Shown: positions 1,066 through 4,035 of the stretch, in pieces | Layout: the number at the start of each line of letters is the position of its first letter | How positions within the stretch are numbered: the first letter of the stretch is position 1 | Assembly: GCA_003134435.1 (NCBI GenBank) | Contig: PLBE01000157.1 | Location: 1-42,129, forward strand | Direction: 5' to 3' | DNA length: 42,129 bases | DNA from: Acidobacteriaceae bacterium | Lineage (GTDB): Bacteria > Acidobacteriota > Terriglobia > Terriglobales > Acidobacteriaceae | The notes under the pieces: model-generated | What the model was told of the DNA's origin: nothing | What the model saw: only the letters and a program-made list of their open reading frames with translations | Databases searched by the model: none | Program-made: the position numbers and the translations under genes

Positions 1066-1794
1066 TTGCTACCATTTGCCACCATTCACGATGGAACCTA
1101 TGGCCGCACCGACGACCGCCTCGCCAGCTACAGTTCCAAAGGGCCAACCGTGCTGGATCACGTAGTAAAGCCCGACATTGTCGGCCCCAGTAATTACGAG
1201 GTGAGCGTGATCGCGCCGGGAAGCACCTTGCTCAGCGAAAACCGGGGCAACGTCGTCCTCGGCACGGACGGTCAACCCGATTACTTCAAGCTGAGCGGCA
1301 CCAGCATGGCCACTCCGATCGTCTCGGGAGCGATTGCTCTGATGCTACAACAGAGCAGTTCGCTGACGCCGGACCAAATCAAAGCGCGGCTGATGAAGAC
1401 CGCCTATAAGACGTTTCTGACGTCGAGCGTAGCCACCGATCCCACAACTGGACAGACCTATACTTCTTACTATGACCTGTTCACCGTTGGCGCGGGGTAT
1501 CTGGACCTGGTCGCCGCCTTCAACAACAGCGATTTGGCACCGGCCACGGTAGGCTCGGCCTTGTCGCCCACGGCCACTTATAACGCCAAGAACCGGACGG
1601 TGAGCCTCTCCAACGGCAACTCGTCGGTGGCGCGAAGCTCGGTGGTTTGGGGAAGCTCAGTGGTCTGGGGCACCTCATCCAATAACGTATTTAGCGTTGT
1701 CTGGGGAACGTCGACCAACGCCACCAGCGTGGTTTGGGGCGCTTCAGTGAGCCAGGGCGATGCGGCGTTTGTAACTCCGATTGGAGAGAACTAA
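1066..1794 (+). pseudogene. 5'-truncated S8 (subtilisin-like) protease paralogue with VVWG repeats
   Basis: This open frame of about 242 codons encodes only the C-terminal half of a subtilase. It keeps the catalytic-serine block (SGTSMATP, around 1300-1320) and a tail of four SVVWG repeats, but has no signal peptide, no Asp block and no His block. It matches the second half of the intact protease at 2221-4035 nearly residue for residue (RTDDR, SYSSKGPT, DHVVKPDIV, SGTSMATP, DPTTGQTYTSYYDLFT). The only in-frame start is a TTG with no ribosome site, and a stop lies just upstream at 1060-1062. In the neighbouring frame, 1053-1073 reads AVTVAT, resembling the ITVGAM of the intact copy, so homology probably continues upstream across a frameshift. 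I infer a duplicated gene that lost its 5' part. The remaining frame is clean, so the loss may be recent. Confidence 0.8.
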
Positions 1795-2220: not shown

Positions 2221-4035
2221 ATGGAACGTACAAGAAAAGCTGGAAAGCCGGCGAAACGGGGACAACGGGGCAGTGCTGCATGGGGCAGACGATTGGCCGC
2301 ATTGGCCTTGATGCTGGTCGGCGGAATGGGCTTCGCGCAGAGCGGGGACATGACGGAGCGGGCGCAGCTTTCGCCGCGGATCGCTTCCGAACTGAACCAC
2401 CAACTGACGCAGGCACGGCAGGGGTTGGGCGGAAACAAGAATGTCCAGGTCATCGTGCAATACAAGCAAGCGCCGCAGAAGGAAACTCTGGGACGGTTGC
2501 AGAAGAACGGCGGACGGCTCGGGGCCAAACTGGACCTGATCAAAGGCGCGTCCTTCTCAGTCCCAGTCAATGCGCTGGCGGCTTTGGAGAACGATCCTGA
2601 GGTTGAGTTTGTAAGTGTCGATCATCCCGTGAAAGGGATGGACGATTACACCAACGACGCGATGAACGTCAACACCGCCTGGAACGCTGGCTACAACGGA
2701 ACCGGGATTGGCGTGGCCGTGATTGACAGCGGCATCAATCCGAACCACGTCGACTGGTGGAACATGGCTGGCACGTTTAACCGGGTGCTTTATCACCAGG
2801 ATTTTACGGGAGCGAACGAGTTCAACTCCTCGGGCTCGCTGGTGTATGACACCTACGGCCACGGCACGCACGTTGCCGGCATCATCGCTGGTACTGGCAC
2901 AATGTCAGGCGGCCAATTTGCCGGAGTTGCCAGGGACGCAAATCTGATCGATCTGCGCGCGCTGGATGGTACGGGCTCGGGCAAAGATAGCCAGGTGATC
3001 GCGGCCATTCAGACGGCGATCTCGCTGAAACCCGTCTACAACATTCGGATCATCAACCTGTCGCTGGGGCGCGGAGTTTTCGTTCCCTACGCCAAGGATC
3101 CTCTTTGCCAGGCAGTGGAATCGGCCTGGAAAGCGGGCATCGTGGTGGTCGCGGCAGCGGGCAATTATGGCCGGGTAAGCTTAAAGGGCAGCGACGGCTA
3201 CGGAACGATTACGGCGCCGGGCAACGATCCCCTGGTCATCACCGTTGGCGCGATGAAGACCATGGACACAGCGACCCGAACCGACGATCGCATCGCCAGC
3301 TACAGTTCAAAAGGGCCGACCACTTATGACCACGTCGTGAAGCCCGACATCGTCGCTCCGGGCAACATGGTGCCGTCCTTGGCCGACTTGACCAGCACGC
3401 TGGCCAGGAAGTACCCGGGCAATATGGTTCCGGGCAACTCCAACGATTATTTCATCCTGAGCGGCACCAGCATGGCGACTCCAGCAGCGTCCGGCGCGGT
3501 CGCCCTGCTGCTGGCGGCGCAGCCTTCATTGACTCCGGACCAGGTCAAGGCCCGGCTGATGAAGACCGCCTATAAGAACTTTCCAACTTACAGTGTTGCC
3601 GTCGATCCTACGACTGGGCAGACCTACACTTCTTACTACGATCTGTTCACGATTGGAGCGGGATATCTCGACGTCGCGGCAGCGCTGGCCAACAACGACC
3701 TGGCGCCGGCGACGGTGGGTGCGGCGTTATCTCCGAGCGTCTCATACAACTCCTCGAACAACACGGTTGCGCTCACCAACGGAAATTCGGTGGTGGCTGG
3801 CAGTTCGGTGGTTTGGGGAACCAAGGTCTTTTCGACCTCGGTGGTTTGGGGAACGAACGTAGCCGGCAGTTCAGTGGTCTGGGGATCGTCGGTAGTCTGG
3901 GGCACGAAGAACACTAACGCCTTCAACGTGATCTGGAGCACGACGTCTACGTCCGCCAGCAGTGTGGTTTGGGGCGCGACGACGGCCACGGCGGATGGCG
4001 AATCACTGGCCACGTCGTTAGCGGGAGAAAACTAA
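2221..4035 (+). CDS. Secreted subtilisin-like serine protease (S8) with C-terminal VVWG repeats
   Basis: This 604-residue exported peptidase should cleave proteins outside the cytoplasm. A basic N-terminus and hydrophobic core (residues about 22-40, ending GFAQ) form a signal peptide. Residues about 70-140 resemble an I9-type propeptide. The catalytic triad is visible: Asp169 in VIDSG, His214 in GHGTHVAG and Ser417 in GTSMATP. From about residue 520 the chain becomes rich in Ser, Thr, Asn and Val and carries five SVVWG motifs plus a degenerate NVIWS, at variable spacing. The function of this tail is unknown; it may be a short beta-strand repeat for surface attachment or assembly. The gene lies opposite the era cluster, next to its truncated paralogue, and ends at a strong terminator. 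The family call is secure; the substrate is unknown. Confidence 0.93.
   Translation: MERTRKAGKPAKRGQRGSAAWGRRLAALALMLVGGMGFAQSGDMTERAQLSPRIASELNHQLTQARQGLGGNKNVQVIVQYKQAPQKETLGRLQKNGGRLGAKLDLIKGASFSVPVNALAALENDPEVEFVSVDHPVKGMDDYTNDAMNVNTAWNAGYNGTGIGVAVIDSGINPNHVDWWNMAGTFNRVLYHQDFTGANEFNSSGSLVYDTYGHGTHVAGIIAGTGTMSGGQFAGVARDANLIDLRALDGTGSGKDSQVIAAIQTAISLKPVYNIRIINLSLGRGVFVPYAKDPLCQAVESAWKAGIVVVAAAGNYGRVSLKGSDGYGTITAPGNDPLVITVGAMKTMDTATRTDDRIASYSSKGPTTYDHVVKPDIVAPGNMVPSLADLTSTLARKYPGNMVPGNSNDYFILSGTSMATPAASGAVALLLAAQPSLTPDQVKARLMKTAYKNFPTYSVAVDPTTGQTYTSYYDLFTIGAGYLDVAAALANNDLAPATVGAALSPSVSYNSSNNTVALTNGNSVVAGSSVVWGTKVFSTSVVWGTNVAGSSVVWGSSVVWGTKNTNAFNVIWSTTSTSASSVVWGATTATADGESLATSLAGEN

Follow-up and report, generated by a model that had tools for sequence, protein, structure and literature searches.

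A hexapeptide tail of acidobacterial subtilases and its genomic association with MASE9-like membrane proteins

Introduction

LapD is a membrane c-di-GMP receptor that controls the periplasmic protease LapG, a cysteine protease that is not known to carry a hexapeptide tail. The signals detected by MASE-type sensors are, to our knowledge, largely unknown. In general, a gene pair that stays constant while its outputs change usually indicates a receptor domain together with its partner outside the cytoplasm. Among repeat structures, the left-handed beta-helix follows the hexapeptide pattern [LIV]-[GAED]-X2-[STAV]-X, and each of its coils comprises 18 residues, i.e., three hexads. RTX repeats are GGxGxDxUx nonapeptides, PEP-CTERM/exosortase-type sorting employs a C-terminal hydrophobic helix and a basic cluster, and a regular scaffold lined with Trp repeats is similar to aromatic ligand-binding surfaces. 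According to a 2022 review, PdeC is processed by periplasmic proteases, and MASE1 counts among the putative sensory domains without a discernible physiological purpose (PMC8846402).

The window, i.e., the whole stretch of 42,129 nucleotides analysed here, comes from a soil bacterium and encodes an S8 protease (subtilase) that ends in a short Trp-bearing repeat. Subtilases, hexapeptide beta-helices, and MASE domains are each already known; the tail and the pairing of a subtilase with a MASE9-type gene were not found described in a search of open-licence papers.

Results

The S8 protease of the window and its C-terminal array

The window protease is a member of Peptidase S8, with a PF00082 score of 182.6 bits against a cut-off of 21.8 and a triad assigned by motif to D169 (IDSGI), H214 (GHGTH), and S417 (GTSMATP). 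Its best solved relative is 3afg, a subtilisin-like serine protease. The best NCBIfam match is the mycosin family TIGR03921; at 131.3 bits, far below the cut-off of 278.75, the identity of a T7SS mycosin was rejected. In the Pfam search of the protein, the tail is covered by no family. The genes flanking the protease on the opposite strand are, judged by eye, presumably relatives of Era and CorC. The features of the locus are listed in Table 1.

Table 1. Positions of the protease, its parts, and its truncated paralogue in the window.
Feature	Position	Strand	Remarks
Truncated paralogue, C-terminal part of an S8 protease	1066..1794	+	four SVVWG at 1639-1740
S8 (subtilase) protease gene, 604 aa	2221..4035	+	PF00082 E=1.3e-53, residues 160-453
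N-terminal signal peptide (putative)	2221..2340	+	read from sequence
SAAWG in the n-region of the signal peptide	2272-2286	+	
Peptidase_S8 catalytic domain	2698..3579	+	
C-terminal hexapeptide array	3784..3975	+	NSVVAG, then five SVVWG and one NVIWS; 6/12-residue phase, two one-residue slips
Five SVVWG units	3805-3819, 3838-3852, 3871-3885, 3889-3903, 3961-3975	+	
NVIWS unit	3925-3939	+	
C-terminal end of the protease	3976..4035	+	...AGEN stop

The sequence-only reading had described five SVVWG motifs and one NVIWS behind the catalytic domain and the same motif in the paralogue; both statements are exact, the former for positions 3805-3975. It had also placed the repeat outside the protease domain, and this was borne out: PF00082 ends at residue 453, some 70 residues ahead of the first hexad, so that the array lies outside the catalytic fold as an element in its own right, and a conserved one. 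Two known kinds of C-terminal element were rejected. The window tail has a period of 6 without GGxGxD, unlike RTX-type repeats, and behind the array the protein is polar and acidic up to its AGEN end, unlike PEP-CTERM/exosortase-type sorting signals. Acidic ends of this type recur among the relatives, the last three residues of 73 tails being DEQ in 19, GEN in 8, GEK in 7, GDN in 5, and others in fewer.

At the opposite end of the protein, an extended n-region motif, RHSAAWGKRL or near, precedes the hydrophobic core in many array-protease signal peptides (L058, L064, L108). SAAWGxR is present in 21 of 80 frames of the relatives, and the SAAWG DNA pattern occurs at three places in the home genome, two of which are array proteases. 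By its sequence, the motif resembles that of the tail and could serve as a separate export signal.

The C-terminal location, the recurring short acidic end motif, and the conserved extended signal-peptide motif in these 21 frames would all suit a tail that an export or processing system reads or removes as a C-terminal signal for secretion or sorting or as a pro-peptide. However, neither a C-terminal hydrophobic helix nor a basic cluster follows the window array, and array length and residue type vary widely, so that a role of this kind is quite improbable.

The two copies in the window stand in tandem, the upstream one lacking its 5' part. In a tblastn comparison of the whole window protease with the paralogue, the sense alignment begins no earlier than residue 353; this 5'-truncated fragment therefore lacks Asp and His of the triad and retains the Ser part only. 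The home genome holds six S8 matches of the subfamily, all with the tail: the two of the window, C31, C33, C243, whose serines are encoded by AGC, and C140, where the repeat reads SAMWG.

Distribution of the array

One genome for each of 84,980 species was scanned across GTDB with the codon pattern V-V-W-G-x-S-V-V-W-G, with Ser as TCN, a single pattern that misses AGY-Ser, Asn, and His forms. The scan matched at least 100 stretches, and 76 of the 80 examined are tails of S8 genes; 72 of these match the catalytic-domain model, and four shortened frames match the model of the domain end. All 76 long frames match the model of the window's S8 family, and 61 of 61 members of alignment A1 (60 of the 76 loci, at least 480 aa, not open at the 3' end) match PF00082. 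The other stretches among the 80 were dropped, namely the short non-protease frames of L061 (Treponema), L081 (Prevotellaceae), and L120 (Clostridia) and the broken frame of L130. In the scan, the array occurs behind S8 domains only. The sequence-only reading had taken restriction to one protease family, with the array as part of the catalytic fold, to speak against a separate element; the scan finds the restriction, and the array lies beyond the fold.

The array records are labelled Acidobacteriota or its subgroups in 75 of the 76 cases, the exception being L103 (CAJCHZ010000077.1), labelled Betaproteobacteria, with an eight-fold NSVVWG tail; a mislabelled bin or a transfer is suggested for it. 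Within 41 genomes of relatives, the pattern was matched in 15, all of the same genus. A looser double pattern was matched in 5 of 396 genomes of the phylum, the home genome counted in, and in two of these five, S8 domains are followed by NVVWGD or HVVWGD units. At E<=1e-40, S8 homologues were present in 19 of 80 sampled genomes. A tblastn search of plasmid sequences with the tail gave no match. Three stretches of viral contigs matched the pattern, and an array-like protein end was present in one of them, L159 (IMG/VR contig IMGVR_UViG_3300047160_028968, pattern at 600-628), with NVVWGD repeats and AAGEK; the array on this viral-filed contig is perhaps host DNA or carried host sequence.

Hexapeptide period and selection

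The repeat unit is the hexapeptide xSVVWG, with one-residue slips and loops. In the window protein, the W-W gaps are 11, 11, 6, 12, and 12; in the tails of 73 anchored relatives (n=442), the gap is 6 in 259, 12 in 92, 7 and 11 in 20 each, and of another length in 51. The window gaps keep the 6/12 phase of the relatives with two one-residue slips. The spacing that the sequence-only reading had called irregular is thus largely periodic among the relatives, with peaks at 6 and 12, though slips and loops remain. Across the counted hexads (n=514), Ser occupies W-3 in 490, Val occupies W-2 in 470 and W-1 in 452, and Gly follows W in 478. The non-Trp hexads are spaced by three hexads (18 residues) in 58 of 112 gaps, by two in 33, by one in 20, and by four in 1. 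Alignment A2 of the tails comprises 55 of the 73 anchored tails, three of the 76 having been left out as unanchored or open. At the DNA level, the two-repeat pattern occurs at 2 places in the window, against a mean of 0.00 over 100 dinucleotide shuffles. Longer units around the same core exist in some homologues (L174, L165, L280), of the 13-residue GGNTIVWGSRGGGL, the 10-residue DNIVWSTGHG, and the 12-residue SGSLFGDDSIVW types.

The array is constrained, less so than the enzyme domain. In 446 SVVWG units of 76 arrays, a count conditioned on the SVVWG peptide, third codon positions are near-random, and first and second positions are fixed save for the existence of two families of Ser codons; of the 446 repeat 15-mers, 426 have no identical copy in their own array. 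Between the window array and that of its nearest relative, L131, dN is 0.18 and dS is 0.81 (dN/dS about 0.22, 61 aligned codons), compared with a dN of 0.04 and a dS of 0.42 for the catalytic domain. These values bear on the idea of a low-complexity repeat that drifts by slippage and has no separate function, for which the varying number and type of repeats and the nearly perfect arrays of some wide-phylum members could be cited. Such drift is very improbable in view of the dN/dS ratio, of synonymous sites that differ between units while the peptide, on which the count was conditioned, is kept, and of the three-hexad phase of the non-Trp units, which recurs in many tails.

The Trp position and the fold of the tail

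Beyond the SVVWG form, the tails of wider acidobacterial S8 homologues (59 distinct frames outside the home genome) share the period: at lag 6, 51 of the 59 beat all 100 shuffles in the best 60-residue stretch. Their units include Trp forms such as SVLWGS, GVIWGD, TLLWSD, AYLWSD, GYLWAD, and GALWGD and Trp-free forms such as GVLIGD, GVVLGD, GVLVSD, GTLIAD, GLTLAE, GIIFSE, and GLLMSD. The Trp position of the period-6 tails is filled by W, L, I, V, M, or F, with Trp the commonest (241 of 392 counted hexads), and a single array, that of L239, mixes W, F, and L there. Eight of the 59 tails are irregular, seven of them holding [VIL]WG in the best stretch.

Some of the Trp-free tails are recognizably close to the left-handed beta-helix (LbH). 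The tail of L189 matches PF00132 at 3.5e-11 (42.7 bits, cut-off 27); among ten wide tails compared with this family, it alone exceeds the cut-off, three fall below it, and five Trp tails give no match. Against PDB sequences, the tail of L240 matches QdtC at 7.4e-12, and the best 60 of 192 matches are mostly LbH by name; the tail of L236 has an LbH match at 7.3e-8. For the Trp form, the signals are fainter. The window protein gives no PF00132 match at E<=1; the family matches 3 of 55 Trp tails weakly, at best 2.6e-4, and unrelated families score alike on such tails (Cementoin at 9.3e-5 in one, a pectate-lyase-like family in five). The profile of the Trp tails gave chance-level matches only against PDB sequences (0.62; 6.3 for gamma-carbonic anhydrase), and a profile-profile comparison of Trp with Trp-free tails by hhalign gave no match. 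AlphaFold2 did not resolve the array, either in the window protein aligned to 60 relatives (mean pLDDT of 29-47 per ten-residue block) or in the regular tail of L112 aligned to 54 others (pLDDT of 34-50).

Set against the hexapeptide rule, the tails have the six-residue period of the left-handed beta-helix, as seen in the W-W gaps and the lag-6 test; the Gly and Val positions of the SVVWG form fit the pattern, but its [LIV] position is Trp, and the Trp-free homologous tails fit better. The kinship of the Trp form with the LbH-like Trp-free tails follows from shared position, shared period, and mixed arrays. On these sequence features, the best explanation is that the SVVWG array represents the Trp form of a hexapeptide tail closing most acidobacterial subtilases of the subfamily. 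Such a tail most likely adopts the fold of a triangular beta-solenoid, a short one with about three coils.

The MASE9-like neighbour gene

An all-against-all blastp comparison of the frames in the 76 loci revealed a second gene family in 54 loci, at any position, mostly directly behind the protease on the same strand and often overlapping it or within 20 bp. With a partner model, a MASE9-like gene was found directly downstream in 56 of the 69 close-relative loci that have at least 700 bp of downstream DNA (7 of the 76 are too short to judge); this count includes the training set, since 26 partners from these loci served to build the model. The blastp cluster was found without that model, and PF20972 (MASE9) served as an independent test. 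Both home-genome partners exceed its cut-off of 24.3, with 30.7 and 35.6 bits, and so do 2 of 4 tested stand-alone partners, the others scoring 22.3 and 22.4. At E<=1, PF20972 has four matches in the home genome: directly behind the C31 protease, directly behind the C33 protease, divergent from the C140 protease, and in C82. The C82 match lies in an HD-GYP protein with no S8 gene within its 3.5-kb locus. Of the 69 loci, 13 are without a downstream partner; in 4 of these, a gene of this type lies upstream in divergent orientation. The nearest relative L131 has no partner over 6 kb, and the window copies have no adjacent partner gene.

The coupling is also seen from the side of the partner, in a reverse test that covered 31 of 32 MASE9 matches (one had no locus). 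All seven stand-alone MASE9 genes follow an S8 gene of the window's family, four behind periodic arrays and three behind irregular [IV]WG tails. Among the multidomain MASE9 genes, 6 of 24 adjoin an S8 gene of this family, and 18 of 24 have no S8 gene within about 1.5 kb. In the wider phylum, the partner is downstream of 15 of 58 proteases with enough DNA, as counted with a partner model enlarged with wide matches beforehand; several wide partners are below the PF20972 cut-off or without a match and were called by this custom model. The partner accompanies 10 of 51 proteases with periodic tails versus 5 of 7 with irregular tails, and, at about equal frequency, 10 of 39 with Trp-rich versus 5 of 19 with Trp-poor stretches. 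The gene coupling is therefore not tied to strict hexads or to Trp.

Two further sets of neighbours were observed. Proteases with Trp-free tails in L212, L216, L237, L240, L246, and L251 are followed by a homologous gene of 305-324 aa, and the two tested of these six match the GNAT acetyltransferase family PF00583. Two recurring clusters, in 13 and 15 of the 76 loci, lie near the protease, mostly upstream (e.g., L058, L080); the one member tested from each is, in L058, an ABC transporter ATPase and, in L080, a solute-binding protein of family 5.

The output module of the partner differs between lineages while the neighbouring genes are constant; it is absent, HD-GYP, GGDEF-EAL, or a histidine kinase. 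The partner of L225 carries HD-GYP with GAF and that of L219 a histidine kinase, both with Pfam MASE9 below the cut-off. The membrane part was assigned by the custom model, not by Pfam, in L068 (HD-GYP with GAF and GGDEF) and in L229, L233, and L235 (GGDEF-EAL). Most partners in the Terriglobales loci stand alone and carry no output domain; all but one of 56 frames are shorter than 380 aa. Among 26 stand-alone partners, the nearly invariant residues (K, P, S, Q, F, N, T, W, F, P, and Y) include neither Cys nor His, so that the partners do not look like a sortase or exosortase as generally understood, which further argues against a tail read as a sorting signal.

Across 46 pairs, distances of the catalytic domain and of the partner correlate at r=0.74, the largest value of 500 permutations being 0.18. 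Beyond the catalytic domain, the tail contributes little to covariation with the partner, the partial correlation being 0.19 versus a null maximum of 0.21.

The tail types beside the partner are relevant to a stand-alone surface- or polymer-binding module, in which exposed Trp ladders on a beta-solenoid would hold the secreted protease on the cell envelope, a polysaccharide, or a mineral, with MASE9 linked via the whole protease. The partner also accompanies proteases with irregular tails, orphan copies without a partner keep the tail (the window, L131, L062), Trp is the commonest residue at its position, and Trp repeats of this kind would resemble aromatic ligand-binding surfaces. Nevertheless, many homologues have L, I, V, F, or M at the place of Trp, which suggests a core rather than a surface role, and a binding module of this kind is rather unlikely.

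Discussion

Proposed mechanism

A constant pair with changing outputs suggests an action of the subtilase on, or together with, the MASE9-type domain, a reading well supported by gene order. That the tail, as the noncatalytic hallmark of the family, is the contact with the partner is a guess with moderate support, weakened by the presence of the partner beside irregular tails. The sequence-only reading had guessed at a sorting, anchoring, or multimerising element; the MASE9 gene context is compatible with anchoring or docking without proving it.

We tentatively propose, as a possibility somewhat short of probable, that the exported subtilase docks by its hexapeptide tail onto a MASE9-type membrane sensor. 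The subtilase would be exported by its signal peptide, and the tail would dock it on the outer face of the membrane partner. The state of the protease or its substrate would then be reported into the cell, via the c-di-GMP enzymes or the histidine kinase fused to the partner in some lineages, or else the protease would be under the control of the partner. We infer both the docking and this direction of signalling. The data suggest that the tail may help to link extracellular proteolysis to intracellular signalling. The window protease would either use a partner encoded elsewhere, that of C31 or C33 in the home genome, or work alone; it may be an orphan borrowing one of these.

A strictly inside-out version of the docking model would follow LapD-LapG: depending on the c-di-GMP level in the cell, an inner-membrane protein would hold a periplasmic protease by its tail or release it. 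Some partners do carry c-di-GMP enzymes. However, 55 of the 56 partner frames are too short for a cytoplasmic output domain, and the histidine kinase output of L219 fits outside-in signalling better; by these comparisons, such a controller is improbable.

In its general form, the docking model with outside-in signalling would give MASE9 sensors a dedicated input from outside the cytoplasm, namely an exported subtilase whose tail is a hexapeptide beta-solenoid, in a pair widespread in Acidobacteriota whose outputs are swapped between none, HD-GYP, GGDEF-EAL, and histidine kinase. This generalization is possible though doubtful. If it is true, the MASE9-type sensor class gains its first candidate partner, and the Trp form becomes a Trp-cored kind of triangular beta-solenoid. 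The protease gene beside MASE9-type genes across lineages makes the question of the sensor input testable with two proteins. Meanwhile, the tail provides a natural series (W, F, L, I, V, and M at one hexapeptide position) for the Trp tolerance of the left-handed beta-helix.

Comparison with known systems

The catalytic domain and the triad motifs of the window protease are common to S8 subtilases (PF00082), T7SS mycosins included. Compared with the left-handed beta-helix repeats (PF00132) of acyltransferases and gamma-carbonic anhydrase, the array is alike in the six-residue period and in having Gly after the large hydrophobic residue and Val or Ala two before it. The window unit V-V-W-G-[TSND]-S is in phase with [STAV]-X-[LIV]-[GAED]-X-X, with Trp at the [LIV] position. 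The array differs in having Trp for Leu, Ile, or Val and in sitting behind a subtilase. The neighbour gene belongs to or borders the MASE9 family (PF20972), but it is mostly stand-alone without an output domain and lies right behind a secreted protease. As in LapD-LapG and PdeC, a membrane c-di-GMP protein appears linked with an extracytoplasmic protease; the protease here is an S8 subtilase, and the membrane domain is MASE9-like.
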